From assembly GCA_913009825.1 (NCBI GenBank), contig CAJVYQ010000036.1, positions 1-48,579 of the forward strand: a DNA stretch of 48,579 nucleotides. Direction: 5' to 3'. This stretch comes from an uncultured Deferribacteres bacterium (lineage in GTDB: Bacteria; Zhuqueibacterota; JdFR-76; DREG01). Below, in pieces: positions 1 through 36,443 of the stretch (the stretch's first letter is position 1; the number at the start of each line of letters is the position of its first letter). The notes beneath the pieces were generated by a model. It worked only from the letters and a program-made list of their open reading frames with translations. It did not search any database and was not told the origin of the DNA. The translations under genes and the position numbers were made by a program.

Positions 1-358
1 GTTAAAAAAACAGGCGCTTTAAAACGCAGAGACGCAGAGAGCGCAAAGGAAGCGGATTTGTTCAAAAAACTAAAGTGTTACGGTATTGTCACTACTCAGG
101 CAGCCCGCGAAAGACTCAAAAAAAAAAACAGGAAAAAAGTTAGATGAGATCATTCGATTGTTTCGTGTGTTTTCTGCCTGTGTCAGATAGACGTGAGCTG
201 AATAGTTACAATAAAACCATAAATGATATTCAAATGTTTCTTGCATTTTTCGGGGGATTGTAACTCGATCAGTTAAAAACAACTCCTTTCAGCCCGTCCG
301 GCAAAAACCCAACTTCTGCTCAGACCACAAAACTACGCTAACGTTCACCTTGATTTTT
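1..358. other. Gap at contig start; no supported gene
   Basis: This stretch lies downstream of the minus-strand ATPase/PglZ gene. It holds a CGCAGAGACGCAGAGAG-type direct repeat near 25-45; related CGCAGAG strings recur near 40820-40845. A 70-codon minus-strand frame (70-282) has low-complexity, unfamiliar sequence and no convincing ribosome binding site, so I do not call it. No hairpin-plus-T-run terminator is obvious. Genes linked to the ATPase could lie beyond base 1. Confidence 0.5.
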
Positions 359-3300
359 TCACCGCCACACGGAAAACGGCACAATCTTTTCAAAAAACGA
401 ATCGCCGCCGTGGGAATAACCGTCGGCAGTTTCGGTAAAACCGTGATCCGAGGTAATCACCACCGGAACATCAGGGGGGATTTGCCGCAGCACAGGTTCA
501 ATCAGCGCCTGCATTCTTTCTTTCATTACGGCCAACATGCTGTTTAACGGTTCTTTGCGTTCATGGAGCAGCGTGTCCACTATGGTCGTATTCAGAAAAA
601 GCAGCGGTTCCCCGCGTTGGATTTGGCGCACAATTTCTGCGGAACGGGCGGGATCTTCGGCCATTACTGCCAATTTCCAGTCCAAAGCTGCGGCCGTTTC
701 AACTATTTTTTCGATGATCACCCGGCGGTTCGTTTCAGTAGTTGTGGGGCTGTTCACTTCTACGGCTTCATAAAGCCGGAGTGTTCGCGGCAACAGCCAT
801 TTGGCAAACAGGGGCTGCAGCATCTCCCACACATCCCAGCGCATGGCATCCACAATGAAAACAACCAACGAGTCGTTACTTTTTCCGATTAATTCACGCA
901 CCCGGTTGGGAACATCATCTATTTGCCGGTAAGGCAGGGAAAGTTCTTTTTTCACGATCTTTTTTTGCGGGAACCCGAGCCGGCCCAGCAATTCGTCTAC
1001 CCGTTTCTGCGAACTTTTCACCCGTTCTTCGGGAATAAGATGAAGCGTGCGATTTTCCGCCGGGACGCTGTCAAGCAGAAGGGGCAGGCGCCAGCCGCGG
1101 TTCAGATAAAAAGCAACCGGAACAGCGGCGTTTTCACCATCGCCGGTAATCTGCAGCAGGTCAAAATAATTGCGCAAAAATTGCAGATGGGGCCACTGGG
1201 AGCTCCTGGGATGGCGGTCAAGTTCTTTCTCGAACCCGGCAACCTCCAACGGCAGCGCCTCTGTGGGCGCAATTTTCAGCAGTAACTGCCGCGCCGCCGA
1301 TACGGAAAGAGATTCCCAGAAAATCTCCCGGTGCATATAATCAATCAACCGGGGGACACTTTTTTTCGACAGATCGATCAATTTGATCAATTGCTGTAAA
1401 ATTCCGGCTTGTTGAAAATAGATGGCGATGCGGTCGATGTCGCCGGTTTCCAGAAAATGCTGCATTTTTTGCCGGATCATGCCGGGATCGACCTTTTGGA
1501 TGCGAAATTTGTTTTGTACCCAATCCAGCCACTCCTCCTCGTCATGAGCCACGGCCCATGCCATCAGGTAAAACGCCTCGTAATAGCGCGGCCCATCCTC
1601 GCGAATCTGATTTCTGAAACTGTGATACTGCTGTTCTTCCAAAGCCGGAAATTCCTGTTCGCTGAGGATATGAACAAAAGTATCTTCCGGTACCGACTCG
1701 CCGCCGGTTAGCCAGTTATCAACAATTTTACGGAGCTGCCGCAGCGGCATCTGCTTGCCGGCCAATTCCTGCTGCAGCTTTTTGATGGGACGCTGCAGGA
1801 TCAGCACTTTACCGCGGATGGCGGCGTTGATTTCGGCAATCACTTCGTCGGAGAGGATGGACAACAACTGCCCGGCCTGTTTGTCCGCCTGCTCCACCGT
1901 AAAACGCAGCAAATTTTCCAGCATGCCCGCCAAATCCGGTTTACCGATCCGGCGCAGATTAGTGATGTAATCTTCCAAAATCCAGCGAAAAGCTTCCTGC
2001 AGTTGGGAAACGCCGGCGACAATGCCGGCCACCGTCCGGTCGTGAATCTCTTCGCTGTCCGTTTCCGGCAGTTCCTGACCGGGAACAAAGCCGCATTCAC
2101 AAACCGGAGAATTAACCAGCTTTTGTTTCGGGTTACATCTGCACGGTTTCTGCAGAGAAGAAATCTGCTGCTGAATGGTCACCCAGTCGGGAGAACAGGC
2201 CACCGCTTCTATCCGGTGCAGCCGTTTCAAAATCTGCACGGCCGGGTCGGTCTCCATCTGCCGCGACTGCTGAAACCGCTCGTCGGCATAATAGGCCTGA
2301 TGCGCTTTTTGATAAAGCCGGGCATAATCGGACTGAAACCGGTAAAATTTTTCCGCAATTTCATTGGCGTGGGCTTCCTCGGTAAAATTGAAGCTTTGAA
2401 ACGCCTGCACAACATCCTCCGCCTGCTGTTCCAAACCGATCTGAGGATCGGCAACCGCTTTTACCAGCAGCGGATGCTGCAGGTACACATAAATCTGATT
2501 AAGTTCCACAAAGCGGTTTTCCACAATGGCAGTCATGCTGTGGAGATGCCTGAACCAGTCGGGCACCTGCTGAATGCGCGCCGCGCCGATCTCTTCCACC
2601 AGTTTTTCCAGCCCTTCCCGCGCCGGAAAAGAGACGCGGATATTGTCACAAAACTCCTCCAACAACAGCAAATCCAGTTCCTCGGGATCGACAATCTGCC
2701 GGTAGGCGGGATAGGATTCGTAACGCCGTGACAGCGACTGCCATTTTTTTAACAATGCCCGCACTTCATGTTTGAATTCTTTCAGCAGCCGCCAGAACTG
2801 TTCCTGCGCGCTGATGGAAAAATGCGCCGAAATGGTTTGAAACCCGCTCAGTTGCAAAAACGGTTTCAACGCCTGCTGCACCACTTCGGAAATGAGTTTC
2901 CCTTCGCCCACCGCTTCGATGCTGCCGTCGCCAAGCTGAGCGATGCTGCGGAACGGCACCGCATTTCCGGCCAGAAAAGCCGTCAATCTGCCGGCCGCCA
3001 ACAGAGCGCCCAACAGCAGTTGGAACTGTCCTTTGGCAATTCCCCACTCCCCTTTGCGCAGCCGCCAGTAAAGTGAATACAGACTTACCGGATTTTCGCC
3101 GGTGCATTCCTGTAAAAAATGGGCAAGCAGACCGTTGCCGTCATCGGATAATGACAGGTTGTACTGATCCGGATCGGACGCAACGATTCCCAGCGGTTTA
3201 AGATAAGTTTCAATCAATTGATCCACATTCTGGCTGCGCGCCTCTTCACGGGGGAGACCACCCGGTTTGATAAACTGCAGAAACAGCCGCTCGCCGACAA

Positions 3301-5617
3301 ACGGCGGCATCACATCTCCGGGCATAATCTCGCTGTGCCGCGGAAAGGCTTCCTGCAAAACCGGTGAAAAAATCTGTTTTAAAATCGATTTGAAATCGGA
3401 ATAAAACGGCGCAAACTGAAAATCCCGCCAGCCCCTGGTATCTGCAATCCGGCCGTGCAGATAAACATCTTCCACAATATTGACGAACTCGCTACGATGC
3501 GCCTCCAGCCATTCCGTCACAATTTGCCGCATCTGTTTTTCCTGGGGACTTACGCTGCCGCCAAGCTGGCGATCGACCATTTCATAAGCGCGGAACCGGC
3601 GCAGAAATTCAATTTCCGCAATCTGAAACGGCCGCGGCACCCAGGCAAGAATGACGCCGGCAAAGCTGTTTTGAAACAAACCGGCGGAAAACTGCGGCGG
3701 TTCCGGCCAATTGGTTTTTTCACTGCCGATGATGAAAAACGCAAAATCCTGCTCACTGGTGAGCAAATCCCGGTTCAGTTCATCCAGCTCGCCCCCATCC
3801 CAACGGGGCTGCTGCTTAAAAAACACCCACCCTTCGCGATGGGTGTTCTGCCAGTCGAATCCGTATTTCCGCCGTTTACCGCTGCCCAGGGCAGTGAACG
3901 GGATCAGAGCATTTTGCAGATGAACAAACAGATCCGGCAACTCCTGTTCCATCTTCACAGGTTGTGAGAAAAACTCCTGTACCCGGTTGCGCACCATCTG
4001 ATGCACCGTCATTTCCATGCTGATGAAGTAAGTGAATTCGCCGGAATCCAGCTTTCCTTTGGCTACAAAAGAACCTTCCTGCACCAGTTTTTTTAAAATA
4101 ACCTCTTTCAGATAGCCGGTATTTAGCGATTCATCCAGGTCCGAAACCGGCCGGTTCAGCATTTGCGAAAGCCGATACACCGTTGCCGGTATTTTCACCA
4201 GATTCAGTTCATTCAAAATGAGAATTTTCACGGCTTTGGCGGCAAGCAGGCGGTCCTCAGGTGAATCGAAAAGGCGGTCAATATCTTTCTGAACCGTTAG
4301 GAAAACTACGTCCACATACGAAGCAAGTTCGGAAATTTCCCGCAGCCGGTCTTTGAAATGATCGAAAATAGTGTCCGGCGTCATCAGTTCGGAGGCAGGC
4401 AGGTCCAGCATCCCCGGCCAGCCGCGATTGTCATCGCCGGTAAGTTGATGGTAAATGAAATCCACCACACCGCGGTGCTGCGAAAAGATCGGCGTTAGCC
4501 CTTCCAGCAATTGCACTGTGTCCGGGTGGATGGGATAGATTGCCACAAAATCGTTTTCTTCGATCTCCGCCTGCGGAAATGCAGTGACAAAGGAACGGTA
4601 AATCGTTTTTATTTGCGGCAGCGCCCCCGTTTTTTTGCAAATCAGGCGCCGGGCGATGAGCTGGTTGACATGATGAGCGGACAGGGAAAACCGCAGCGGG
4701 AAGCGATCTTTAATGCGGTAAACCAGATCCTTTTCGATGTAGCCGGTTTTTTCGATATTCTCCTGCAGTGCGGCGATGAGATAGACCGGCAGGGTGGTTT
4801 TCGTATCGGCGTCGCCTGTGCAGGCCTCGCCCAAAAACTGCAAAAAACGCAGGTCTTCGGTGAATAGCGCCGAGGAAGGTTTGGCCTTCAAAAACTCTGA
4901 CAGTTCATCCAATGCCCAAAATGTGCCGTCATAATCCGCCGCCTCAAGCTCCCGGTGGAGAATCTCCAGCGCTTCCCGCCGGTCAAAAACGGCGCGCAGC
5001 GGAATCTGATTTTTTTGGATGAATGAATAGGCCTGTTGAATTGCTTTCTGCGGCTGTTGCTGTGAACGGGCTGCCCATTCGGATTTAGTCTGTTTTATTT
5101 CACGCAAAAATTCGGGATGCTGCGGCAGAACATAACGATTGAAATGCTCCACCAGCATGGCGCCGCGGCGCAGCAAAACCGTTTCTCCTATTTTATGTTG
5201 CAGGATTTTCTCGGTTTCGCCAAACAGAATAGATTCCAGCGATTCACCCGCCGAAAAATTGTGCAGGGCAACTTTCACCACCAGAATTTTCTGCTCCGAG
5301 AGTCGCTTAAATTCCTGCAATTGGGGATACCGGATGTATTCCCACAATTTGGTGGATTCCAACAGCAGCGAGAGCACAGCCAGAAAATGAGATTTTCCCG
5401 AACCGTAATTCCCGCGTAAAAATGCTGCGCCGCCGCGACGGTTCAGCGCCCGGTGAAAAAACTGCTGAAACGCCCTTTCAATCTCATCGGTGACCACAAA
5501 GGAAGAGAGTAAATTCCGGCTGCCCGGTTCATCCTCACTGTCGGCTATATCCAGCCGGATCACCGTTTCCACCTCGGGCACAGAGATGAGAGACCCAATC
5601 TTTGGTAAGTTTGCCAT
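359..5617 (-). CDS. DUF6079/BrxC-like P-loop ATPase fused to C-terminal PglZ domain (BREX-like)
   Basis: A 1752-residue protein counted from ATG 5617 (first residues MANLPKIGSL). The frame is open to a GTG at 5656, but only the ATG has a purine-rich stretch (CGGAAAG) at suitable spacing. The N-terminus (ETVIRL, then a D/E-rich stretch) resembles DUF6079. Walker A is GNYGSGKS at 69-76, Walker B is FWALDE at about 233-238, and LIAALQE at about 280-286 is a sensor-like strand. A CxC...CxC zinc-ribbon-like cluster lies near 1150-1170. Residues about 1570-1752 form a PglZ core: FIVDAMRWD, SPTTTE, TSDHGF and YSHGG, ending IVPFSVWR. BrxC/PglY ATPases and PglZ phosphatases are separate proteins in BREX phage defence; here they are one chain. 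No methyltransferase, BrxA/B or PglX is visible, though downstream genes could lie off the contig. The domain calls are firm; a defence role is inference. Confidence 0.85.
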   Translation of the reverse strand: MANLPKIGSLISVPEVETVIRLDIADSEDEPGSRNLLSSFVVTDEIERAFQQFFHRALNRRGGAAFLRGNYGSGKSHFLAVLSLLLESTKLWEYIRYPQLQEFKRLSEQKILVVKVALHNFSAGESLESILFGETEKILQHKIGETVLLRRGAMLVEHFNRYVLPQHPEFLREIKQTKSEWAARSQQQPQKAIQQAYSFIQKNQIPLRAVFDRREALEILHRELEAADYDGTFWALDELSEFLKAKPSSALFTEDLRFLQFLGEACTGDADTKTTLPVYLIAALQENIEKTGYIEKDLVYRIKDRFPLRFSLSAHHVNQLIARRLICKKTGALPQIKTIYRSFVTAFPQAEIEENDFVAIYPIHPDTVQLLEGLTPIFSQHRGVVDFIYHQLTGDDNRGWPGMLDLPASELMTPDTIFDHFKDRLREISELASYVDVVFLTVQKDIDRLFDSPEDRLLAAKAVKILILNELNLVKIPATVYRLSQMLNRPVSDLDESLNTGYLKEVILKKLVQEGSFVAKGKLDSGEFTYFISMEMTVHQMVRNRVQEFFSQPVKMEQELPDLFVHLQNALIPFTALGSGKRRKYGFDWQNTHREGWVFFKQQPRWDGGELDELNRDLLTSEQDFAFFIIGSEKTNWPEPPQFSAGLFQNSFAGVILAWVPRPFQIAEIEFLRRFRAYEMVDRQLGGSVSPQEKQMRQIVTEWLEAHRSEFVNIVEDVYLHGRIADTRGWRDFQFAPFYSDFKSILKQIFSPVLQEAFPRHSEIMPGDVMPPFVGERLFLQFIKPGGLPREEARSQNVDQLIETYLKPLGIVASDPDQYNLSLSDDGNGLLAHFLQECTGENPVSLYSLYWRLRKGEWGIAKGQFQLLLGALLAAGRLTAFLAGNAVPFRSIAQLGDGSIEAVGEGKLISEVVQQALKPFLQLSGFQTISAHFSISAQEQFWRLLKEFKHEVRALLKKWQSLSRRYESYPAYRQIVDPEELDLLLLEEFCDNIRVSFPAREGLEKLVEEIGAARIQQVPDWFRHLHSMTAIVENRFVELNQIYVYLQHPLLVKAVADPQIGLEQQAEDVVQAFQSFNFTEEAHANEIAEKFYRFQSDYARLYQKAHQAYYADERFQQSRQMETDPAVQILKRLHRIEAVACSPDWVTIQQQISSLQKPCRCNPKQKLVNSPVCECGFVPGQELPETDSEEIHDRTVAGIVAGVSQLQEAFRWILEDYITNLRRIGKPDLAGMLENLLRFTVEQADKQAGQLLSILSDEVIAEINAAIRGKVLILQRPIKKLQQELAGKQMPLRQLRKIVDNWLTGGESVPEDTFVHILSEQEFPALEEQQYHSFRNQIREDGPRYYEAFYLMAWAVAHDEEEWLDWVQNKFRIQKVDPGMIRQKMQHFLETGDIDRIAIYFQQAGILQQLIKLIDLSKKSVPRLIDYMHREIFWESLSVSAARQLLLKIAPTEALPLEVAGFEKELDRHPRSSQWPHLQFLRNYFDLLQITGDGENAAVPVAFYLNRGWRLPLLLDSVPAENRTLHLIPEERVKSSQKRVDELLGRLGFPQKKIVKKELSLPYRQIDDVPNRVRELIGKSNDSLVVFIVDAMRWDVWEMLQPLFAKWLLPRTLRLYEAVEVNSPTTTETNRRVIIEKIVETAAALDWKLAVMAEDPARSAEIVRQIQRGEPLLFLNTTIVDTLLHERKEPLNSMLAVMKERMQALIEPVLRQIPPDVPVVITSDHGFTETADGYSHGGDSFFEKIVPFSVWR

Positions 5618-5754
5618 AAGCGCTTTCCGTTTATTGGAGTTATGATAATTTAGCACAGAATATCAGAATTTCCAAATTATAAATTGGGATTGCAATTGTG
5701 TGAATATTTTTCATGATAGAAAAAGAGTTATTTTTTAATAGAAAACATTTCTAG

Positions 5755-5890
5755 GGCTAACGGCAAAGCTCACCGGCACGAAAGGTTATTTCTTCTAAAC
5801 AAATATTCAACGGGTTTGCATTCATTTTATCTCCAAAACCTAATTTCCATGCTACCAGCGTTTCGTGTCCGGTGCAGTGCATTGTTAGGC
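5755..5890 (-). repeat. attC recombination site of an integron cassette
   Basis: On the plus strand the site begins with GGCTAAC (5755-5761) and ends with GTTAGGC (5884-5890), the inverted R-box arrangement of attC sites. The inner arms CACCGGCACGAAA (5771-5783) and TTTCGTGTCCGGTG (5861-5874) pair over about 13 positions with one unpaired base, like the extrahelical bases that orient attC folding. At 136 bp it is within the usual attC range. It lies immediately 3' of the minus-strand thioredoxin/TPR gene, where a cassette's own attC is expected. One R-box position departs from RYYYAAC. Confidence 0.72.
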
Positions 5891-5912
5891 CACAAACGGG
5901 TATAATGTAAGC

Positions 5913-7052
5913 TTAGTATGAATCATACTTTTTCAAAGTCGATTTATACTCTTCCTTATTAGGATTAATTTTTATCGCTGCTTCTATTGCCTTTGTGGCG
6001 TTATCTGAATAACCTAATTCATTATAAATCAGAGAAAGAGTATACCATATCTTATCTAAATCAGGATTAATGTCAAGCGCCGTTTTTGATATCTCTATAG
6101 CTTCGTCATAGTTGTCTATTAGTTTATATTGGTAAACTGCTCGAGCATAATTACGATAATAAGATGAATTACTTGGCATATTAGCAATTGCAATCTTACA
6201 TGTGGATAAATACATACTTATATCATTTATACTTTTATAATGATTCAATAAACGCCAATAAGCTACATCTCTTGCTGGCAAACGGGATATTGCTGCATTA
6301 CATGCCACGATATAATTACTTGTATCTTTGTGCTTTTCATAAAAATTGAAAAGATAGTCATATCCCAATTTTACATCCTCATTGTTGTCCGAATTAGCAA
6401 TAATATTTAGCAACAATGATTTTTCATCATCAAAACGTATTTTGTATAAAGCAAGGTACAATTGACTTTTTTCATGATATCCATATTGGTCGTTTTTATC
6501 AAAGTTCAGAACATTACTAAAATATTGATAGCTCTTTATTAATTCATCGCGAGTAACATATTTCATTGCCAGATTATAGTTGTTTTCGATACTCAACGAA
6601 TCACTTTTGTAATTTGCTAACAATATTAACAGGGTATTCTTATTGGATACATAATCCTTTATAGTCTGATAATATTGCTTTTTGTCCCCATTGAATCCGC
6701 AATTCCTGTCAATTTCATTTCCTTCACTATTAAAAAAGATCACTGTCGGCAGTCCTACGACATTATAGTATTCCCTTAATTCCCAATAGTTATCATGAGT
6801 ATCTGCAGTTAATTTTACACTAATAAACTGTTGATTAATATATTTGCTAATCAATTTGTCTTTAAATACCGTATTTACTAATCTCACGCATGGCATACAC
6901 GTTTTAGAAAAAAAGTCAACCATTACCAATTTATCTTTTTGTTTCGCAACATCGAAAGCTTCTTCTAAACCGATAGACAGAAAATCGACTTCTTGTTTTC
7001 CTGAACAAGAGAAAATCGACATATAAATAAGAATAAAAATTAAATTTTTCAT
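5913..7052 (-). CDS. Thioredoxin-fold/TPR lipoprotein, integron cassette gene
   Basis: 379 residues from ATG 7052, chosen because GGAG stands 7 bases upstream; an in-frame ATG at 7064 contains that ribosome site. The N-terminus is a lipoprotein signal (hydrophobic MKNLIFILIYMSIFSC, Cys at about 16), so the product is probably anchored in the periplasm. A thioredoxin-like domain follows with CxxC (KTCMPC) and a cis-proline strand VGLPTVIFF. The second half is helical with TPR-like repeats, clearest at the C-terminus (WYTLSLIYNELGY...AIKINP). A role in thiol redox or disulfide handling is inferred. The gene is much more AT-rich than its neighbours and fills the space between two attC sites, so it is probably a captured cassette. 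Its start lies about 20 bases inside the R box, as is common for cassette genes. The TPR part is too divergent to assign a partner. Confidence 0.85.
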   Translation of the reverse strand: MKNLIFILIYMSIFSCSGKQEVDFLSIGLEEAFDVAKQKDKLVMVDFFSKTCMPCVRLVNTVFKDKLISKYINQQFISVKLTADTHDNYWELREYYNVVGLPTVIFFNSEGNEIDRNCGFNGDKKQYYQTIKDYVSNKNTLLILLANYKSDSLSIENNYNLAMKYVTRDELIKSYQYFSNVLNFDKNDQYGYHEKSQLYLALYKIRFDDEKSLLLNIIANSDNNEDVKLGYDYLFNFYEKHKDTSNYIVACNAAISRLPARDVAYWRLLNHYKSINDISMYLSTCKIAIANMPSNSSYYRNYARAVYQYKLIDNYDEAIEISKTALDINPDLDKIWYTLSLIYNELGYSDNATKAIEAAIKINPNKEEYKSTLKKYDSY

Positions 7053-7070
7053 TTTATGCTCCATTTTGTG

Positions 7071-7204
7071 GCCTAACGGTTTGCAGTTAAGGCGCCAAAG
7101 CAGCAGGCAAAAGAGCTGGCAGAAAACACCAAAACTGAACCAAAAGCCACCCCAAAATCCAAAAAATCAACCGTGGTTTTGTCGCCTTGAACTGCAGGTT
7201 AGAG
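7071..7204 (-). repeat. Second attC-like site, upstream of the cassette gene
   Basis: The plus strand reads GCCTAAC (7071-7077) and GTTAGAG (7198-7204) at the ends. Inner arms TGCAGTTAAGGCG (7082-7094) and CGCCTTGAACTGCA (7183-7196) pair completely except for one extra base, the extrahelical base expected of attC. Length is 134 bp, nearly the same as the site at 5755. On the minus strand the GTTAGGC box is followed at once by the cassette gene's leader, so this would be the attC of the preceding cassette. No gene survives on its far side, and no integrase gene is in the window. Confidence 0.72.
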
Positions 7205-7222
7205 CTACGATGTTTGTAAATG

Positions 7223-7421
7223 CAGACCTCGTTAAATCAGGTGTTTTATTGTTCATTAAGTTCTTGTTTACTAGTCAATTGTGAGAAAATCCATTAATAA
7301 TTGAACACTGCATGTTTGAGTTTAAACTAAAAAACAAGTACTTACGCAATATATAGTGCAAATTCATGATGATTTTTGTCCGGTTATTCAACCTAATATT
7401 TATCAAATTTAACGAGGTCTG
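7223..7421. mobile_element. MITE-like element with 15-bp terminal inverted repeats
   Basis: CAGACCTCGTTAAAT at 7223-7237 is repeated as a perfect inverted copy (ATTTAACGAGGTCTG) at 7407-7421. The 199-bp AT-rich interior codes for nothing recognisable, so any movement would need a transposase in trans. No target-site duplication is visible. It sits between the attC site and the large palindromic repeat. Confidence 0.55.
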
Positions 7422-7427
7422 AAGATT

Positions 7428-7812
7428 ACTCAAGTTTCGCATTTATAATAACTCAGGTATTGTAACTTGTCAGGATCCGAAAAATACAGTTGTCCGGAAT
7501 ATCTTTTGTTCCATTCTTCGATGTTAATCATCCTGTGCATAAAACAAGTATCCGCATGTTTCCGGGACAATCCCTGTTCATTGATTCATATCCTGCGAGC
7601 CCTGAAAGGGGGGAATATACCAGCCCGGGGCAACGCCCCCGGGGGAAAAAAACAACGGAGTCAGGCCCTGAAGGGGCGGAATACAAAATTCAAATGAACC
7701 GATCGTACCGGCACAGGTAAATATTCCGCCCTTTCAGGGCTCGTTATTCTTTTTCCTCTTTCCCCCCGGGGCGTTGCCCCGGGCTATTGTATTTCACCCC
7801 GTTGGGGCGGCT
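7428..7812. repeat. Long palindromic REP-like repeat, copy 1
   Basis: Bases 7428-7752 match 48199-48523 over 325 bp with about ten differences. The core holds AGCCCTGAAAGGG plus AGCCCGGGGCAACGCCCC in the left half and their inverted copies (CCCTTTCAGGGCT, GGGGCGTTGCCCCGGGCT) in the right half, forming a large cruciform of about 200 bp. Stop-free frames inside it are overlapping 76-codon reads of repeat DNA with no start signals and are not called as genes. GCCCTGAAAGGGC-type repeats of this look are familiar in FCB genomes; the mobilising enzyme is not in the window. Confidence 0.8.
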
Positions 7813-8270
7813 GAAAATGTATTTTAAATGCTATGAATGTCTCACTGATATCTAAAAGAGTATCACCGGCTTTTTGGGGTTGGGTAAACAATCCTTTCAA
7901 TTCGTGCAATTTTGTAATACCTTTAATATACAGCATATAACCTCTGTTTTGGAATTATGTATTAACATATTATAATTTATTAAGTTGTAAGATTGTATGC
8001 TGCTTTTTTTATGCCGGTTTCCCTTATTTTTATGCCGGTTAACTAACTGCGAAACTTGTAAAGTTAAAATGTAAACCATATTATTCAGCAGAAAAAAGAT
8101 AATCCATCGTTCATTTTTCATTCTTCGTTGTTTTAAAGTTATCAAATTCCTGAAAAATATGAAAGCTAATTTTTCCCAATGTAATAATTGCTTTTTATTG
8201 TGGTATTCATTAGATTTGTTGCAGGAATTAGGCGGTTTGGTTAGTGCATTGTTTGTTAACAGGAGTAACA
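7813..8270. other. AT-rich gap before namZ; no gene seen
   Basis: The region is AT-rich and non-coding. It contains a short direct repeat TTTTTATGCCGGTT (near 8007 and 8030). A minus-strand frame (7897-8271) is low complexity and looks spurious. The namZ ribosome site (AGGAG) is at its right end; I could not fix a promoter. Confidence 0.5.
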
Positions 8271-9518
8271 ATGAAAAATCACTTTTTCAGCCTAAATAAA
8301 TTTTATCTGCCGCTGATTTTTATTTTTCTCTCTCACTACATCGCCAATGCGCAGCAACTGCCGCAAATCCGGCTGGGCATCGACCGTCTGGTGATGAATC
8401 CGCCCGAAATCATTTTGGGCAAGCGGTTGGGCTTAATCACCAATCCCACCGGCATGGCCGGTAATATGCGTTCCACCATCGATATTCTTTTCACCGACAA
8501 CCGCTTTCAACTGACCGCTCTGTTTGGTCCGGAACACGGAGTTCGCGGCGACGCTTTTGCCGGTAAAAAAGTTGCGGATTACCAAGACCCCAAAACGGGC
8601 GTACCGGTTTACAGCCTCTACGGCAAAACCCGCAAACCCACGCCGGAGATGCTGAAGAACGTGGATCTGCTGATCTTCGACATTCAGGATATCGGTATCC
8701 GTCCCTACACTTACATTTACACCATGGCGCTGGCCATGAAAGCGGCAAAAGAGAACGGGATTCCGTTTGTGGTCCTGGATCGCCCCAATCCACTGGGCGG
8801 ACTGTTAGTGGAAGGGCCGGTATTAGATACCAAATTCAAATCTTTCATCGGCATGTATCCCATCCCCTACGTACACGGCATGACGGTTGGCGAGCTGGCC
8901 GGATTATTCAATGAAGAATACGGCATCGGCTGTGATCTGACCGTGATCCGAATGCAGGGCTGGCGGCGGGAGATGCTGTTTCATGAAACCGGCCTGATCT
9001 GGGTGCCCACATCTCCCCATCTGCCGCATCCGGAAACGGCCTTCTTCATTGCCGCCACGGGAGGGTTCGGCGAACTGGGCACCATTTCCGAAGGTGTCGG
9101 CACGCCGTTCCCTTTCGAAATCTGCGGCGCTCCCTGGATTGACGGTGAAAAATTAGCGCGGGAATTGAACAATTTCAATCTGCCCGGTGTGTTTTTCCGG
9201 CCACTGTCTTTTAAGACTTACTATCTCCGTTTTGTCAATGAACCGTGCAGCGGCGTGCAACTTCACATCACGGATTTCACACAGTTTGAACCGATGCGCG
9301 TGCAGATCCACCTGCTGACGGCGCTGAAAAAATTATTTCCAGAATACGACTATTTTAAAGAATCCAAACGGATATCCAGTTTCAACAAAGCGATGGGTTC
9401 GGATAAAATCATGCGGCAGATTCAAGCCGGTAAGTCGGCAGAGGAGATCATCTCTTCCTGGCGGGAGGAGATGGCTCAATTTTTAAAAATCCGGGGAAAA
9501 TATTTGATTTATCAGTAA
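8271..9518 (+). CDS. namZ: Secreted exo-beta-N-acetylmuramidase, NamZ / DUF1343 (GH171)
   Basis: 415 residues from ATG 8271, with AGGAG 8 bases upstream; an earlier in-frame start at 8244 lacks a ribosome site. A signal peptide ends near residue 27 (ANA/QQ). Family motifs are seen in order: LGLITNPTG (about 53-61), GPEHGVRG (86-93), VPVYSLYG (111-118), DIQDIG (137-142) and RPNPLGG (171-177). The characterised family member releases N-acetylmuramic acid from the non-reducing ends of peptidoglycan fragments. Length matches the family. It is followed in the same direction by two more secreted glycoside hydrolases, which supports a role in extracellular or periplasmic peptidoglycan scavenging. 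A palindromic hairpin (9524-9548) lies just after the stop. Confidence 0.9.
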   Translation: MKNHFFSLNKFYLPLIFIFLSHYIANAQQLPQIRLGIDRLVMNPPEIILGKRLGLITNPTGMAGNMRSTIDILFTDNRFQLTALFGPEHGVRGDAFAGKKVADYQDPKTGVPVYSLYGKTRKPTPEMLKNVDLLIFDIQDIGIRPYTYIYTMALAMKAAKENGIPFVVLDRPNPLGGLLVEGPVLDTKFKSFIGMYPIPYVHGMTVGELAGLFNEEYGIGCDLTVIRMQGWRREMLFHETGLIWVPTSPHLPHPETAFFIAATGGFGELGTISEGVGTPFPFEICGAPWIDGEKLARELNNFNLPGVFFRPLSFKTYYLRFVNEPCSGVQLHITDFTQFEPMRVQIHLLTALKKLFPEYDYFKESKRISSFNKAMGSDKIMRQIQAGKSAEEIISSWREEMAQFLKIRGKYLIYQ

Positions 9519-9523
9519 ACGAG

Positions 9524-9548
9524 GGCGCAGGAGTTGAACTCCTGCGCC
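9524..9548. repeat. 3' palindrome, family A copy 1
   Basis: A 25-base near-perfect palindrome with arms GGCGCAGGAGTT and AACTCCTGCGCC, 5 bases after the namZ stop. Similar GCAGGAGT/ACTCCTGC hairpins follow three other stop codons in this window. There is no T-run, so it is not a standard terminator. Confidence 0.75.
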
Positions 9549-9641
9549 GGCAAAATAATCAATGATCCATTATAAAAACTGTTTCTTACTGAGAACTCGA
9601 ACCTTTTAACAATGTAGCAGAAGAAACCTGTAGAGGCTGAC

Positions 9642-12600
9642 ATGAAGAAAATCGCCATAATTTTATTCATCCTGCTATTTTTTCAATCCGTTTCGGGCAA
9701 AGAAAACGAGGAATTTCGCGCCACCTGGGTAGTTACCTGGGAATGGGCCATGTCATCCGGCAGCATCGAGGCGCAAAAAGCCCGGATTCGCGAAATACTG
9801 GACAACCACAAAAAAGCCAACATGAACGCTGTTCTCTGGCAGGTACGGCAGAGCGGCACAGTTTACTATCCTTCTTCTTTTGAACCGTGGGGCTATTACC
9901 TGGGTCACACCTACCCCGGCTTCGATCCCATCGAATATGCCGTACAGGAAGCGCATGCCAGAGGATTGGAATTTCACGCGTGGATAAACACGTTCGAGGC
10001 GCGAAGCAGCGTTTCCGGCGCCCCGGCCGAGGTTCATCCGGAATGGATCTGTCGCGATGGACACGGCAACTCCATGCCGTCCAAATACACTCTTTCCCCG
10101 GGACTGGAACAGGTGCGAAAATATCTGGTGGATGTGGCAATGGAAATCGTGAATAAATACGATATCGACGGCTTGCATCTGGATTATGTGCGCTGGAGTG
10201 AATTCACCACTTCTTCCATCGGTAAAAAAATCGCCAGGGCAGGACAGCCAAAACGGGAGTTTGACGGCGTCATCTCCCAGGCTCAAATCGAAGAATTAAA
10301 GAAGGCTAATTCCGCGGATCGTTACCTGTTTGATGTGGAACACCCGTACAGCGCCGGTATTCCCGCCGGTTTTACCAATTGGGAAGATTGGTGGCGCTGG
10401 TCGGTTACCGAATTTGTGCGCACTTTGCAGGATTCCATCAAAGCCGTCAAACCGTGGGTGCGGCTCTCGCCGGCTGCGTTGGGAAAATACAACTGGAGCG
10501 GCTGGAACGGATATAATGTAGTCTATCAGGATGCCGCCCTCTGGTTCAACGAAGGCTATATCGATCAGTTGATGGGGATGCACTACCACTGGACAAGCGG
10601 TGCGGATTTTTACGACATGCTGACAGGAGGATGCCCCAACTGCTGGGGGCAATACATTCAGCCCGGCATTGCCGCGGGACGTCTTTTCTCCGTGGGTCCC
10701 GGCTCCTATCTTCTGGATGAAAAAAATAAATGGGGCAATCATCCGCAAATTGTGGCAGCCTGCCGCACTGTGCCCTGGGTGGATGGATTTCAATTTTTCA
10801 GCTACGATAGCTGGGAAACCCGCCAATACTGGCAAACCGCAGCGGAAACTTTTTTCCGCTACAAAACAAAAATACGCGCTTCAAAATTGATCGACAATTC
10901 CGTTCCCGATGCGCCTGCGATTAATCTGATCAAAATAGATTCCCTCGGCTATCGCATCGAAGTCACACCGCCGGCTGCAATCGCCGGCAATCGATGGTTC
11001 GCAATTTATCGTTCCGAAGATGAAATTCCGGATGTGAACACCGATCCGATCATCGATTTGCATTTTAGCAATCAGGCATATTCCTTCGTTAACCAATTCA
11101 ACGGACTGCAGGATTACAACGCTTCGTACCACTATTTTGCCACCACACTCAATCGCTACTGGAATGAATCGGCGCCTTCAAACAGCATAACCAGCGCGCC
11201 GATCCCCTCCTTTGCGCCAACGGTGATCACCACTTCTCCGGCCGAAAACGACTCGGCAGCCGTCAATACCGCCATCGAGATTGTTTTTTCCAAAACAATG
11301 GATACCGGTACTTTGCAAAACGGCATTGCAATCTACCCACCGGCGGTATTGGGTCAGATCAACTGGTCGGGAGATCATAAAAATGTAACCGTCTATTTTA
11401 CCGGCAATCTGAATTTTGCCACGCAGTACACCGTTACACTAACTGCGGTAATTACAGACATCAACGGCCGGAATTTGGATGGTAACTACGATGGCATTGA
11501 GGGCGATTCTTTCACCTTTCATTTTTTCACCAAATCCCGGGATGTGAACGGGCCGAAAATTTTTACCAGTCACCCGCAGGAAAATCAACAGAATTTTGAC
11601 ATCCAGGATGTACTCACAGTCCTGTTTGATGAACGGATCAACCGGAACACGGTGCAGGATACCACCATCGCTTTGACTTTCGATGATTCTCCTGTTGCCG
11701 CGGCTTTCAATGTGACAAATGTGGGCGAAAAATCGGTTTTGAATGTACAGCCGGTTACACCGCTGTCCGTCAACACTGAATATTCGTTTCGGTTGAACCG
11801 TTCAGTCACAGACACAGCGGGAAATTCGATGGCTGAAACGCAGGTGATCCCGTTCCGCACCTCCCCTTTTTCCTACACGGAAGAAGTTCTGATTGACAAA
11901 TTTCTTTCCGTAAGCAGTTGGGCAACTCCCGGTTACAGCGGTTCGACGAAAGGAATTTACGAAGCCAACACAACATTTAAAATGAGCACCGGCGCTTATC
12001 TGCCTGCTTCTCCGGTGCGCCAGAGAGCCGCGGCGGAATTGAAATACAAGTGGGATGAAAATCAGTCTTCTTTTTTGCTGCGGGAATACCTGAAAGAAGG
12101 CGCTCCCCGGGCAGTTACTTTCGATACTACCTACACGTTACAGAGCTACATTTTCGGCGACGGCAGCGGCAACAAATTCCGCTTCTGCATCGATGAGGGG
12201 ATGGGATCCAACTGGCCAAATCACGAAGTTTCCAGATGGGTCGCCATCGATTGGTTTGGCTGGCGTTTGATCGAATGGAAACTCAGCGATCCCAACAGCG
12301 CCGGCACCTGGATCGGCAACGGCGTGCTGGACGGCAGTCGCTACCGTATCGACAGTTTTCAACTGACTCACGAACCGGGCGCCGCCGTGACCGGAAAAAT
12401 TTATTTTGACAACCTGCGGCTGGTAAAAAAATCTTCCGCGCCTGTTTTTGTGGATGAAAATCATCCGGCAGTTCCCGGTCAATTTGTGCTGCGCCAGAAT
12501 TATCCTAACCCCTTCAATCCGGGCACGAACATTACATTTGATCTGCCGGCGCCCGGCCGCGTGCAATTAACCGTCTTCGATCTGCTGGGACGTAAAATTG

Positions 12601-12740
12601 CCGAGTTGGCAAACGGTAACCTGAATGCCGGTCATCATGAGTTCTATTTTGACGCCGCAAAATTAAGTTCCGGAGTTTATATTTACCGGCTTTCGTATGC
12701 GGACCGGGTTGTCTCGAAAAGGATGATGTTTCTAAAGTAA
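9642..12740 (+). CDS. Secreted GHL10 (DUF187) glycosyl hydrolase with Ig-like domains and T9SS tail
   Basis: 1032 residues. ATG 9642 follows an AGAGG site. A signal peptide spans about 1-20. A GHL10 TIM-barrel-type domain occupies about 25-400: FRATWVVTWEW near the start, HAWINTF, and the conserved DIDGLHLDYVRW strand at 173-184. Two Big_5/SbsA-type Ig-like domains follow at about 525-640 and 640-745 (SPAENDSAAVN, SHPQENQQNFD). A beta-rich carbohydrate-binding-like region spans about 750-930. A C-terminal T9SS type A sorting domain (about 945-1032) has NYPNPFNPGT and SSGVYIYRL. The E. coli GHL10 protein DigH (YddW) cleaves denuded peptidoglycan glycan strands, which makes a glycan backbone the likely substrate. 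T9SS-like tails direct proteins across the outer membrane. The substrate is inferred from the family and from namZ upstream. Confidence 0.85.
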   Translation: MKKIAIILFILLFFQSVSGKENEEFRATWVVTWEWAMSSGSIEAQKARIREILDNHKKANMNAVLWQVRQSGTVYYPSSFEPWGYYLGHTYPGFDPIEYAVQEAHARGLEFHAWINTFEARSSVSGAPAEVHPEWICRDGHGNSMPSKYTLSPGLEQVRKYLVDVAMEIVNKYDIDGLHLDYVRWSEFTTSSIGKKIARAGQPKREFDGVISQAQIEELKKANSADRYLFDVEHPYSAGIPAGFTNWEDWWRWSVTEFVRTLQDSIKAVKPWVRLSPAALGKYNWSGWNGYNVVYQDAALWFNEGYIDQLMGMHYHWTSGADFYDMLTGGCPNCWGQYIQPGIAAGRLFSVGPGSYLLDEKNKWGNHPQIVAACRTVPWVDGFQFFSYDSWETRQYWQTAAETFFRYKTKIRASKLIDNSVPDAPAINLIKIDSLGYRIEVTPPAAIAGNRWFAIYRSEDEIPDVNTDPIIDLHFSNQAYSFVNQFNGLQDYNASYHYFATTLNRYWNESAPSNSITSAPIPSFAPTVITTSPAENDSAAVNTAIEIVFSKTMDTGTLQNGIAIYPPAVLGQINWSGDHKNVTVYFTGNLNFATQYTVTLTAVITDINGRNLDGNYDGIEGDSFTFHFFTKSRDVNGPKIFTSHPQENQQNFDIQDVLTVLFDERINRNTVQDTTIALTFDDSPVAAAFNVTNVGEKSVLNVQPVTPLSVNTEYSFRLNRSVTDTAGNSMAETQVIPFRTSPFSYTEEVLIDKFLSVSSWATPGYSGSTKGIYEANTTFKMSTGAYLPASPVRQRAAAELKYKWDENQSSFLLREYLKEGAPRAVTFDTTYTLQSYIFGDGSGNKFRFCIDEGMGSNWPNHEVSRWVAIDWFGWRLIEWKLSDPNSAGTWIGNGVLDGSRYRIDSFQLTHEPGAAVTGKIYFDNLRLVKKSSAPVFVDENHPAVPGQFVLRQNYPNPFNPGTNITFDLPAPGRVQLTVFDLLGRKIAELANGNLNAGHHEFYFDAAKLSSGVYIYRLSYADRVVSKRMMFLK

Positions 12741-12765
12741 GGTGCAGAAGTCCAACTCCTGCACC
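12741..12765. repeat. 3' palindrome, family A copy 2
   Basis: Arms GGTGCAGAAGT and ACTCCTGCACC form an imperfect 25-base hairpin that begins on the base right after the GHL10 gene's TAA. Same family as 9524, 18499 and 34096. Confidence 0.7.
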
Positions 12766-12906
12766 GGCGGAAAAAGTTTATTTTTTGTCATGTGTCGGAC
12801 AAATTTTTACAAAATCATCGATGATCACTAAAATTAATGTTTATTTGTAGGCCGATTCACCGAATCGATCTACATTATGGTTTTATTTAGATAAAAGGAA
12901 GAATGG

Positions 12907-15399
12907 TTGAACCATAGAATTCAAAAACAGTTAAAATCCGACTGGAGATCCATAATTCTCCGGGGAATAAAATTTATTTTGCTTTTGATTTTGGCAATGG
13001 TCGCGATTTCCGGCCAAACATTCGCTCAGGAAAATATTCCGCCATCCATTCATCAGATTGAATACGAAAGGCACCGGGGGCAAAAACCGGTTTACATTTT
13101 CGAACCATCTATACCGGTTTCTTCTTTACAGAAACGATCGCTGAAACCTAATCGTGAAATCTTCGGTTATCTGCCCTATTGGGTTTCCGGCCGGTATATC
13201 CGCTGGAGTCATATCACTACGCTGGCTTATTTTGGGCTGGAATTTGACAGCCGGGGCAACATTGTAAACTCACACGGCTGGCCGGCCACTTCCCTGGTTA
13301 ACCAGGCCCATGCCAATGGCGTCCGGGTGGTTGTCGTTGCCATCAATTTCAATCCGGATGATCTGCATTCTCTGCTCACCAATCGGGACCGGGGGGACAC
13401 CTTCATCGCGAATCTGATTACAGCCGTCAAAAACGGCAACGGCGATGGCGTAAATATCGATTTTGAACTTCCCTACGCCAGCGACCGGGATTCATTAACC
13501 GCTTTCATGACCCGTTTGGCGGAGAGGTGCCGCACGGAAATTCCCGGCTCTCATGTAAGCATTGCCACGCCGGCCGTGAATTGGTCCAACCGTTTCGATT
13601 ATCAGGGTCTGGCGAACGTCTGCGACGCGCTCATGATTATGGCCTACGGCTACTGGTGGAACGGGTCATCAACTGCGGGACCGGTTTCTCCGCTGACCGG
13701 CAGCAACTACAACGTCACCCGAACGGTGAATGAATATTTGCAGCAAACCGGATATGCGGCAGACCGTATTATTCTGGGACTGCCGTACTACGGCATCGAA
13801 TGGCAAACGACAAGCGATCAAGTCGGCGCCGGGACAACTTCCTACGGAGAATCACGGACATACCAGACAGCCGTGCAAAATGCGCAAACGTACGGACGCC
13901 GCTGGCATGATGGCTACAAGAATCCGTGGTACGCCTATTTTCAGAACAACAGTTGGCACCAGTGCTGGTACGACGACAGCCTGAGTTTAAGCTACAAATA
14001 TCAGTTGGCATTGGCGAAGCAATTGGCAGGCATCGGTATCTGGGCGCTTGGCTACGATGGCCCCCGGCCGGAATTGTGGGGCGCCATCGAGGATCATTTT
14101 TTCGCCGCCGATTCCTTCCCACCCGGCCCGCCAACTCATTTTTCCGTTCTTGCGGTTGCTGCGGGAAGAATCGACATTCGTTTCCACCGGGCAAAGAATG
14201 CCGCGGGGTACCAGTTGTATTCAAGCATCGATGGTAGTAATTTTGTTGCCGAGGCTACTTTTTCCGATACAAATTTCATCGAGATAACCGGAAAAATGTC
14301 TCCCGTTGTCTATTTCAAACTAAGGGCACAAAACAGCGCGGGGGTGAGTAATTTTACAGAAGTTCTGGCCGCCTCCGTCTCCGCACAGGCAGCCGGTATT
14401 ATGGTTGTAAACGGATTTGACCGGGTCTCCGGCACAAACAACACTTTTAATTTCATCCGTCAGCACGGTCAGGCATTACAGGCAAACGGCGGGTTATTCT
14501 CGTCATGCAGCAACGAAGCTGTCGCCGCGGGCGATATTTCCCTGCAGGATTTTGATATGATCGATTGGATTCTGGGTGAGGAAGGAACGGCGACGGAAAG
14601 TTTTTCTGCGGCTGAACAGGGCAAAGTAAAGACCTTTCTAACAAGCGGCAAGGCCCTGTTTGTTTCCGGTTCGGAAATAGGGTACGATCTGGTTGCCAAA
14701 GGTAACCGGCAGGATATCTCTTTTTATCATAATTATCTCAAAGCGGACTACATCGCCGACGATGCCCGGTCGTACGGATTCTCCGGAGCGAACGGGTCGT
14801 TTTTCTCTTCGCTTCCGGCCATGTCGTTCGACAACGGTACCCACGGCGGCTACGATGTGGATTACCCCGACGGCATCAAACCGTCCGGCGGCAGTCAGTT
14901 GGGCTTTGTTTACCGCGGTGTGAATTACAACGCCAAAGGCGGAGCGGGAATTTATTATCAGGGGACTTTCGGACAGAGCAGCCAACCGGGTAAATTGGTT
15001 TATCTTGCCTTCCCGTTTGAAATGATTGTCTCGCCGGCGAACCGCACTGCATTGATGGGCGAGATACTTCATTTTTTTGGCATTGCCTCCGGAGTTGCCG
15101 ATCATAAAACCGCCGTACCGGAAGACTATCTGATTATCCATACATTCCCCAATCCGGTTTATCTGACCAGGTCAACGCTGCTGCATATAACGGTTCAAAC
15201 CAATGATTTACATCACCTGGTGCAAATTAGTCTGTACAATTCTCTGGGGCAATTGGTTAAAAAAGTAGATGCGCGGCAAATTCTGCAATTTTCCGATAAA
15301 TTGATTGTTGATGTTGCAAATTTGAGTTCCGGTGTTTATTTTATAAGGGCCTTCGCCGGCAATTTGCAAAGCCAAAAGCGTATAATCATTTTACGTTGA
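12907..15399 (+). CDS. Secreted GH18-type hydrolase with FN3, ThuA-like domain and T9SS-like tail
   Basis: 830 residues. The likely start is TTG 12907 with GGAAG 6 bases upstream; an overlapping ATG at 12903 ends after four codons in another frame. The N-terminal signal (FILLLILAMVAISG) ends near FAQ. The GH18 barrel spans about 70-400: IFGYLPYW, the catalytic strand DGVNIDFE at 180-187 (Glu187 as acid/base, with Asn where DxxDxDxE often has Asp), LMIMAYGYWW and LGLPYYGIEW. An FN3-like domain follows at about 408-495. Residues about 497-725 form a GAT/ThuA-like domain (MVVNGFDRV, WILGEEGT, SGSEIG) found in Bacteroidetes xanthan-lyase-type proteins. The C-terminus (about 735-830; TFPNPVY, SSGVYFIR) is a T9SS-like sorting domain. 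The likely substrate is a GlcNAc-containing glycan such as chitin or peptidoglycan; this is inferred. Confidence 0.85.
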   Translation: MNHRIQKQLKSDWRSIILRGIKFILLLILAMVAISGQTFAQENIPPSIHQIEYERHRGQKPVYIFEPSIPVSSLQKRSLKPNREIFGYLPYWVSGRYIRWSHITTLAYFGLEFDSRGNIVNSHGWPATSLVNQAHANGVRVVVVAINFNPDDLHSLLTNRDRGDTFIANLITAVKNGNGDGVNIDFELPYASDRDSLTAFMTRLAERCRTEIPGSHVSIATPAVNWSNRFDYQGLANVCDALMIMAYGYWWNGSSTAGPVSPLTGSNYNVTRTVNEYLQQTGYAADRIILGLPYYGIEWQTTSDQVGAGTTSYGESRTYQTAVQNAQTYGRRWHDGYKNPWYAYFQNNSWHQCWYDDSLSLSYKYQLALAKQLAGIGIWALGYDGPRPELWGAIEDHFFAADSFPPGPPTHFSVLAVAAGRIDIRFHRAKNAAGYQLYSSIDGSNFVAEATFSDTNFIEITGKMSPVVYFKLRAQNSAGVSNFTEVLAASVSAQAAGIMVVNGFDRVSGTNNTFNFIRQHGQALQANGGLFSSCSNEAVAAGDISLQDFDMIDWILGEEGTATESFSAAEQGKVKTFLTSGKALFVSGSEIGYDLVAKGNRQDISFYHNYLKADYIADDARSYGFSGANGSFFSSLPAMSFDNGTHGGYDVDYPDGIKPSGGSQLGFVYRGVNYNAKGGAGIYYQGTFGQSSQPGKLVYLAFPFEMIVSPANRTALMGEILHFFGIASGVADHKTAVPEDYLIIHTFPNPVYLTRSTLLHITVQTNDLHHLVQISLYNSLGQLVKKVDARQILQFSDKLIVDVANLSSGVYFIRAFAGNLQSQKRIIILR

Positions 15400-15468
15400 T
15401 ACGTTTTATCCGCGTTTTGCCGGCCACTACAGGGAGGATGACGGTATTTTTTCAGGAAATAACTCATA

Positions 15469-16077
15469 ATGACAAAAAGAAAATCGGGCGTCGGGAAGCC
15501 GGATAAAAGCGGCTCCCGCTCTTCTGCCGTTTCTGTCCGTACCAACACGTTTTTATTTGCCGTGCTTTCGCTGGTTGCTGTTTTTACGGTTGGTTATCTT
15601 CTCACAGCAAAATTCAGCCGGAACCGCGCAGACACCGGCCGGGGGAATACAGTATCCGCCACGGCGGCAAAAGAATCGGACATTCAATTAAAAAAAGAGG
15701 GTGAACTGCGTTTTATCAGCAAAGTAACCGGTAAAACAATCAAAAGAATCGACATTGAAATTGCCGATAACGAGTATGAAAGAACACAGGGGCTGATGTA
15801 CCGCTCATCCATGCCGGATTCGGCCGGCATGCTGTTCATTTTTGAACATTCCCAACTACGCTCATTCTGGATGAAAAACACCATCATCCCTCTGGATATT
15901 ATTTATTTCAACGAGAACAAAGAGATCGTAACCATTCACAAATACACAACGCCCTTTTCGGAAGCATCGATTTTTTCCTACAAAAGAGCACAGTATGTAG
16001 TGGAAGTTAACGCGGGTTTTTGCGATAGATACAAAATCATGGAAGGGGATCGCATCGTTTTTTCGTCGGCAAAATAA
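15469..16077 (+). CDS. Membrane-anchored DUF192 protein
   Basis: 202 residues from ATG 15469, with an AGGAAA site. A basic N-terminus is followed by one membrane segment (about 27-48, LFAVLSLVAVFTVGYLL), then a linker. The DUF192 domain spans about 85-200, with its signature GLMYRSSMP, GMLFIF, SFWMKNT and IPLDIIYF. DUF192 proteins are small beta-rich extracytoplasmic domains without a proven biochemical role. Here the domain would sit in the periplasm. It lies 69 bases after the GH18 gene and may be co-transcribed. The family call is firm; the function is unknown. Confidence 0.88.
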   Translation: MTKRKSGVGKPDKSGSRSSAVSVRTNTFLFAVLSLVAVFTVGYLLTAKFSRNRADTGRGNTVSATAAKESDIQLKKEGELRFISKVTGKTIKRIDIEIADNEYERTQGLMYRSSMPDSAGMLFIFEHSQLRSFWMKNTIIPLDIIYFNENKEIVTIHKYTTPFSEASIFSYKRAQYVVEVNAGFCDRYKIMEGDRIVFSSAK

Positions 16078-16187
16078 TTTTGTTGATAAAGCAACTTTCG
16101 GCGACACGTGTCTTTGCTTTATCCGGTGATTCAGCGAACCGCGCGCCATGAATTGAATGATTGATAAATTAAAAGAAAGGTGCCAAC

Positions 16188-17645: not shown

Positions 17646-17659
17646 GGAAAACTACAATC

Positions 17660-17692
17660 AAACCTTCCGGATTTTAAAAACCCGAAAGGTTT
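17660..17692. terminator. Palindromic hairpin after the transglutaminase gene (family B repeat)
   Basis: AAACCTTCCGGATTTT and AAAACCCGAAAGGTTT form a 33-base imperfect palindrome 15 bases after the stop at 17645. A close relative lies at 32265-32297. It could stop transcription before clpP, but there is no long T-run; the repeat identity is clearer than the terminator role. Confidence 0.5.
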
Positions 17693-17879
17693 CGGAGCCT
17701 GGGAAACTGCAGCCAAAATCAGCTCAAATAAAACGGCTCAAATGACTGAATTAAACGGTATTTTCCAACAAAGAACTGGAAATTTACAAAACTTTCCTTT
17801 ATTTTAGGAATTCCAGCGCTTAAGCGAAGGAATCGCTAAAATAAATCAGAAGAGAATTTTGAACATGGAGTATTGGTAA

Positions 17880-18458: not shown

Positions 18459-18498
18459 TCGCGTAGCGGTATTTTCTATAATGATGTGTGGGCAGTGT

Positions 18499-18521
18499 GG
18501 GCAGGAGTACAACTCCTGCCC
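18499..18521. repeat. 3' palindrome, family A copy 3
   Basis: Arms GGGCAGGAGT and ACTCCTGCCC with a 3-base centre, 40 bases after the ClpP-like gene's stop. A partial echo (GAGCAATTCCTGCC) follows at about 18532-18545. Confidence 0.75.
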
Positions 18522-18603
18522 AAGCCGCGGGGAGCAATTCCTGCCAGGCTACGGGGGAGCAATTACGACCCAAACTGAAAGCTTTCGTACCACGAGTAGA
18601 TAA

Positions 18604-36246: not shown

Positions 36247-36443
36247 ATTTTTCTCCTCAATTTTTGTAAATGGTCTTTTTCTCACTTATTCAAAGAATAA
36301 AATGAGAAGTAATTTTTTATTTAACACCTACATCTCCTCCGCAAAAAGACAAAACAGATCGTCACTATTTTTTTGCCTAGCTGCATTCAAAAGGTTGAAC
36401 TGCTTTTTGTCCAATCACCTCCTTTCTTTTCCCGCTGACTTCA

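Follow-up and report, generated by a model that had tools for sequence, protein, structure and literature searches.

In BREX, four to eight proteins act jointly, which is part of what has made its restriction of phage hard to explain. BREX type 3 consists of BrxF, BrxC, PglXI, PglZ, and BrxHII. PorX, a T9SS response regulator with an N-terminal receiver domain, acts in secretion control. In type I BREX, BrxB binds the N-terminal domain of PglZ and the AAA+ domain of BrxC, yielding an ATP-dependent bridged complex (PMC13326643). BREX PglZ nicks and cuts DNA and is inhibited by ATP, and both PorX and PglZ cleave oligonucleotides; in E. fergusonii PglZ, T538 and H741 (equivalent to PorX T272 and H500) are required for full nuclease activity (PMC12205998). 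A 2026 survey of BREX diversity sets out the BREX types, BR systems built on DUF499, and the BREX-Related Capture (BRC) system, which relies on HerA and always has HerA/FtsK, plus DUF4007 and STAND; unassigned hits were discarded (PMC12839542). Its passages on these systems mention no single-chain BrxC-PglZ, and the term TPR is absent from its main text (PMC12839542). A literature search covering openly available main texts returned no description of a fused or solo PglZ or of a PglZ-TPR pairing.

The window (the whole stretch of DNA analyzed, 48,579 b) is the entire contig C36 of a draft genome from the phylum that includes candidate division KSB1. One uninterrupted ORF of 1752 codons encodes a BrxC-like ATPase joined to PglZ (Table 1). 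It may start with ATG at 5617 or with GTG up to 5656, and the homologue alignment favors ATG. The original prediction of a single chain combining a BrxC-type ATPase with PglZ is borne out by this one ORF, by the predicted folds of its parts, and by full-length homologues.

Table 1. Features of the fusion gene and of the adjacent contig end (window coordinates).
Feature	Position	Strand	Basis
BrxC-like AAA+ ATPase/PglZ single-chain fusion, 1752 aa	359..5617	-	Open ORF and full-length homologues
BrxC/DUF6079-like region, residues 1-1320: ORC/Cdc6-type AAA+, winged-helix and alpha/beta part, coiled coil	1658..5617	-	Pfam, model, profile
Walker A GNYGSGKSH, residues 69-77	5387..5413	-	Family-invariant bar positions 70-71
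Walker B FWALDE, residues 233-238	4904..4921	-	D237 and E238 invariant
Candidate arginine-finger segment RIKDRFPLRF, residues 301-310	4688..4717	-	D304, R305, and R309 invariant
Cysteine cluster C1159-x13-C-x-C	2093..2143	-	Three Cys conserved in family
All-helical connector from BrxC-like part to PglZ core, about residues 1320-1579	881..1660	-	Model secondary structure
PglZ alkaline-phosphatase-type catalytic core, residues 1580-1752	362..880	-	Foldseek and profile against PDB
VDAMRWD, residues 1589-1595, metal ligand D1590	833..853	-	D1590 invariant in 10 PglZ sequences
Nucleophile segment PTTTE, T1627	734..748	-	hhalign; T in 9/10 PglZ sequences
Metal ligands D1681...H1685	563..577	-	Invariant in 10 PglZ sequences
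Metal ligands D1724 and H1725 in SDHGF, residues 1723-1727	437..451	-	Invariant in 10 PglZ sequences
YSHGG, residues 1734-1738, H1736	404..418	-	Invariant in 10 PglZ sequences
Dispersed repeat at C36 end	22..48	+	102 genome copies

The N-terminus of the fusion matches DUF6079 in a single-sequence Pfam search (E=1.2e-42) and is typed as BrxC by PADLOC; against the NCBIfam BrxC model it scores 78 bits, below the cut-off of 400. Two AlphaFold models, of residues 1–1000 and 1001–1752, were built from homologue alignments. The best PDB matches of the first (pLDDT 81) are to Acinetobacter BrxC (9zll/9zdx, E to 4.5e-13), followed by ORC/Cdc6, and a profile of the N-terminal family matches BrxC chains at 6e-18. 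The predicted fold marks the ATPase half as specifically BrxC-like. The Walker A and B motifs pointed out earlier (GNYGSGKS and FWALDE) are present and conserved in the family. A proposed zinc-like cluster, CxC...CxC, stands in part: the family alignment conserves three of its cysteines (C1159, C1173, and C1175), but the fourth, C1161, varies, and a four-cysteine cluster was dropped for this reason.

The connector shows neither a PglZ N-terminal alpha/beta domain nor an iSTAND domain in its predicted secondary structure. Since the single-sequence Pfam match to PglZ is under the curated cut-off (E=0.024), the assignment of the C-terminal core rests on a 10-sequence PglZ profile and on the predicted fold. 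The profile matches PorX (2.4e-9) and BREX PglZ (7e-7) in the PDB, and the model of residues 1001–1752 (pLDDT 84) matches, by Foldseek, PorX PglZ domains (2e-8) and then BREX PglZ (2.8e-6), so that the claimed C-terminal fold was upheld by structure prediction. The motifs named for it (VDAMRWD, TSDHGF, and YSHGG) were all found, with metal residues invariant in the 10 sequences. Alignment by hhalign to the window genome's own PorX pairs T1627 with the PorX nucleophile T271/T272, and H1736 is presumed to be the counterpart of PorX H500 and PglZ H741. With the Walker, metal, and nucleophile residues retained at the two active sites, as judged by prediction and conservation, both halves are real and look active.

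Full-length fused homologues (1733–1772 aa, 22–51% identity) occur in four phylum-level groups: the window's phylum, Marinimicrobia, and the phyla of G082 and G083. They include proteins from a MAG titled Deltaproteobacteria (L036, 51%), from two Marinimicrobia genomes (L037, 49%; L038, 45%), and from L099/G355 (45%). Homologues at 22–27% identity come from KSB1 and from the Riflebacteria group, and include the KSB1 proteins of L022/G066 and L023/G062 (about 22%) and those of L101/G398 and L102/G396 (27%, near-identical to one another). Partial copies are found in G060, G039, G063, G361, and G083; the G063 copy has the look of a locus in decay, and G083, a Riflebacteria MAG, has the fusion split across two contigs. 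In the Riflebacteria contig, the fusion stop codon is directly followed (after about base 2410 of L042) by a Ser/Thr kinase frame that lacks its N-lobe start, possibly an assembly join. Fused or partial copies are present in 6/82 genomes of the window's phylum, with split copies in another category described below (2/82), and the fusion is present in 2/245 Marinimicrobia genomes, 3/40 of the G082 phylum, and 3/40 of the G083 phylum. Both Marinimicrobia genomes have the same housekeeping neighbors at the locus, which suggests vertical inheritance there.

An alignment query found the relatives in public genome contigs; the window protein alone as query matched nothing in public genome contigs or viral contigs. 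The phage records searched held no match to the fusion, and a six-member alignment query found no relative in viral contigs at E<=1e-3. On plasmids, only four DUF6079-type ATPases were found, and both of the two inspected sit in BREX loci.

A gene encoding a TPR protein of ~325 amino acids is the next conserved gene upstream of the fusion, on the same strand, in all nine genomes with a readable upstream flank (G039, G062, G066, G083, G084, G085, G355, G396, and G398). The gap between the two genes is 3 bp in G396 and G398, 17 bp in G083, 85–88 bp in G355 and G039, and 443–1233 bp in the remaining genomes. In Marinimicrobia, a nucleotidyltransferase/HepT toxin-antitoxin pair separates the TPR and fusion genes of one genome (L038, 8806–9635), and PIN-type toxin-antitoxin genes lie near the fusion of the other (L037, 2655–3295). 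A profile of five upstream TPR proteins, made with the window genome and G082 left out, identified orthologues unlinked to the fusion in these two genomes (C78:516–1487, 347 bits, in the window genome; contig C101, 331 bits, in G082). We therefore read the fusion and the TPR gene as a two-gene module, not a lone fused gene. The suggestion of a minimal, methyltransferase-free system is upheld as to its recurrence without a methyltransferase, but not as to a single chain being the whole system, since the TPR gene lies upstream in 9/9 genomes and co-evolves with the fusion.

In the window, the gene directly upstream of the fusion encodes a Trx-TPR lipoprotein (5913–7064). It was rejected as the TPR partner: it has a thioredoxin domain, its GC3 is 28% as against 60% for the fusion, and the true orthologue is on C78. 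So large a difference in GC3 suggests a junction between DNAs of differing origin near this gene. The right-hand neighbors in the window are ordinary (NamZ, GH18, RodZ, Na/H antiporter, and TonB receptor). Type IX sorting tails (Por_Secre_tail) occur at 9642–12740, 12907–15399, and 34600–36285, with GHL10 and GH18 hydrolases among these proteins.

For 12 genomes, separate trees built from the ATPase region, the PglZ core, and the TPR sequence have the same main groups. Their distance matrices are correlated (Spearman 0.86 for ATPase-TPR, 0.88 for ATPase-PglZ, and 0.77 for TPR-PglZ), with 0/5000 Mantel permutations as high; part of this correlation could stem from shared descent of whole genomes. 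In all three trees, the window joins the Marinimicrobia, G082, and G355 proteins and not the copies of its own phylum, and its TPR protein keeps to this grouping even though encoded on a separate contig from the fusion. Because the grouping crosses phyla, the sequences point to joint transfer of ATPase, PglZ, and TPR. When BREX BrxC was used to root the ATPase tree, support was moderate (88/97) and branches were long, and for this reason we do not claim a single fusion event.

The flanks of the fusion copies, about 357 kb in all, were searched over all ORFs with queries for PglX, BREX methyltransferases, BrxA, BrxB, BrxF, and BREX helicases and with a motif IV scan. No DNA methyltransferase was detected beside any fusion copy by the PglX and methyltransferase queries or the motif scan, and BrxA, BrxB, and BrxF gave no match. 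The sole BREX-type match, an SNF2-like helicase, lies near the fusion of G062. In G082, the motif scan also picked up a 146-amino acid DPPY fragment close to the TPR gene, which is unlinked there. All-against-all comparison of neighbors revealed no conserved neighbor across groups other than TPR. The lack of an adjoining methyltransferase or other BREX gene, first noticed in the window, thus extends to the homologue flanks, and the idea that homologues might always sit with pglX, brxA, or brxB fails, as none of these lies beside any homologue. Nor are the loci typically in defense islands; most are among ordinary genes.

Contig C36 breaks 358 b beyond the fusion stop codon. The original prediction allowed for a larger locus beyond base 1; the fusion reads leftwards, so the sequence missing there is downstream of the gene, not upstream. 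The contig end falls inside a dispersed repeat, AAACGCAGAGACGCAGAGAGCGCAAAG, with 102 copies (<=3 mismatches) in the window genome, and this is the probable cause of the assembly break. The repeat also occurs at the ends of contigs C10, C29, C54, C56, C62, C98, C102, C108, and C121.

BREX-type genes are found elsewhere in the window genome. A BREX-3-type locus (L029, G000:C12:20000-39990, 4003–19591) has BrxF fused to the N-terminus of a BrxC-like ATPase (1404 aa), with methylase-like and helicase-like genes and PglZ. Genes of BREX-1 type (L031, G000:C62, 2658–11808), BrxC-like and, judged by eye, PglX-like, adjoin DarT/DarG-like genes. A third contig (L032, G000:C30, 629–2735) encodes a PglZ domain of 307 amino acids (E=9e-29), and its upstream ORF contains a repetitive 'SLSTHHSL'; a repeat may break up this PglZ gene.

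A split version of the module occurs in G055 and G056, which belong to one family and are therefore counted as one lineage, not independent cases. Their unfused 1340-amino acid ATPases (P0004 and P0005) resemble the window N-terminus, with 38% identity over the AAA+ part. Across the window's phylum (82 genomes), this split ATPase and a long standalone PglZ (P0006 and P0007) are limited to these two; the closest relative of P0006/P0007 elsewhere in the phylum is the window C-terminus, and the G055 PglZ is nearest to the BREX-3 model. TPR orthologues score 89 and 96 bits, the best in each genome, with other TPR proteins at <=58 bits. Both genomes also encode a BrxF-like P-loop protein; no close homologue was found in fusion-bearing genomes by a single-query search, which divergent homologues would escape. 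The ATPase, PglZ, TPR, and BrxF-like genes are on different contigs, except that the TPR and BrxF-like genes adjoin in G055. The unfused ATPase gene adjoins a nitrilase-family carbon-nitrogen hydrolase gene (L024 in G056, L025 in G055); the nitrilase, present only in these two related genomes, was rejected as a module component.

The architecture of the fusion module is well supported. We assign a probability of about 0.6 to the reading that the fusion is the effector or motor subunit of a two-gene, methyltransferase-free BREX offshoot, with a TPR partner and an ATP-gated PglZ nuclease. The ATPase part would load on DNA and oligomerize, and the TPR protein would most likely act as a sensor or adaptor that passes a trigger to the fusion. 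The resulting ATP state would then free the PglZ site to make nicks in DNA or to cut nucleotides, so that phage replication is blocked or the cell dies. With no methyltransferase, BREX methylation could not set self apart from nonself; some other trigger would be needed, and its only candidate source is the TPR partner. In the simplest reading, the covalent fusion stands in for the BrxB/BrxF bridge, since the connector is all helical and both a long PglZ and a BrxF-like protein are retained in the split form. An anti-phage function we infer at somewhat better than even odds; speaking against defense are the mostly ordinary genes at the loci, the vertical inheritance suggested in Marinimicrobia, the unlinked TPR gene of the window genome, the lack of relatives in phage and viral records, and the finding of BREX-type ATPases alone on the plasmids examined. 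The fuller proposal, a BREX-derived two-gene immune module that discriminates invaders without DNA modification, in which fusion replaced the bridge and G055/G056 retain the unfused form, we consider evenly balanced.

An alternative is that the fusion serves the host in regulation or stress and not in defense. It would then be a PglZ phosphodiesterase coupled to an ATPase that acts on oligonucleotides, cyclic or linear, as PorX does in secretion control, with TPR as an ordinary partner. In fold, the nearest match to the PglZ core is PorX, both PorX and PglZ cleave oligonucleotides (PMC12205998), and the neighbors are mostly housekeeping genes. However, the distribution is very patchy (8/82, 2/245, 3/40, and 3/40 genomes), the branching crosses phyla, with the window protein closer to those of Marinimicrobia and G082 than to own-phylum copies, and the ATPase is specifically BrxC-like; we regard this alternative as unlikely. 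Still less probable is an add-on acting in trans with a complete BREX, for example by borrowing its methylation signal. The window genome does carry genes of BREX-3 type (C12) and of BREX-1 type (C62), but in G066 (92% complete), G055, and G056 the only PglZ matches above cut-off are PorX-sized proteins and the only DUF6079 match is the module itself, so the module persists where no full BREX is detected.

The nearby contig break could also hide the methyltransferase of an ordinary, fused BREX just past base 1 of C36. Homologues with readable flanks have no adjoining methyltransferase, which makes this very improbable, and a larger locus beyond base 1 is unlikely on these comparisons. An assembly chimera or chance ORF might be suspected from the draft state of the genome and the weak single-sequence Pfam score for PglZ, but is refuted by the full-length homologues, which occur independently in several phyla with the layout unchanged, and has a negligible likelihood.

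If the module is indeed a BREX offshoot, a natural two-gene ATPase-nuclease version without methylation would reveal the parts of a minimal restriction machine, and BrxC-PglZ coupling would become testable in a single purified protein. It also raises the question of what marks self from nonself without a methyl mark, and whether the TPR protein is the sensor.

In comparison with known systems, the fusion most resembles the BREX B:C:Z sub-complex (BrxC-BrxB-PglZ), in which a BrxC-type AAA+ protein is likewise tied to a PglZ nuclease (PMC13326643, PMC12205998). The predicted folds and catalytic residues are the same, but the fusion is one chain and not three proteins, BrxB and the PglZ N-terminal domain are not seen, and a TPR partner is present instead of adjoining PglX, BrxA, or BrxB genes. 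With BREX type 3, the split version in G055/G056 shares a BrxF-like protein and, in G055, the PglZ most similar to that type, but it lacks a methyltransferase and BrxHII, has scattered genes, and adds a TPR gene. PorX shares the PglZ core fold and nucleophile threonine, whereas the fusion has no receiver domain by Pfam and is joined to an ATPase.

BRC, as described in the survey's main text, resembles the fusion in having a DUF6079 ATPase and PglZ without PglX, but its ATPase and PglZ are separate and no TPR component is described, whereas the fusion joins both and has TPR (PMC12839542). A universal HerA neighbor was not apparent at fusion loci in the shared-neighbor comparison, and BRC membership is unsupported. 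BR types 1–3, as presented there, have a BrxC-related ATPase in common with the fusion, and in type 3 a standalone PglZ is present (PMC12839542); the ATPase of the fusion is instead DUF6079, no methyltransferase lies beside it, and Pfam scans up to E 1 and up to 0.1 reported no DUF499 in it. Of the parts of BREX, the fusion has a PglZ with metal and nucleophile residues and, by fold and DUF6079, a BrxC/PglY ATPase. By membership, the module is neither BREX, having no methyltransferase, nor BR, having no DUF499; judged by its components and by how it probably works, it is BREX-like, and it is probably a stripped-down, previously undescribed relative of BREX.
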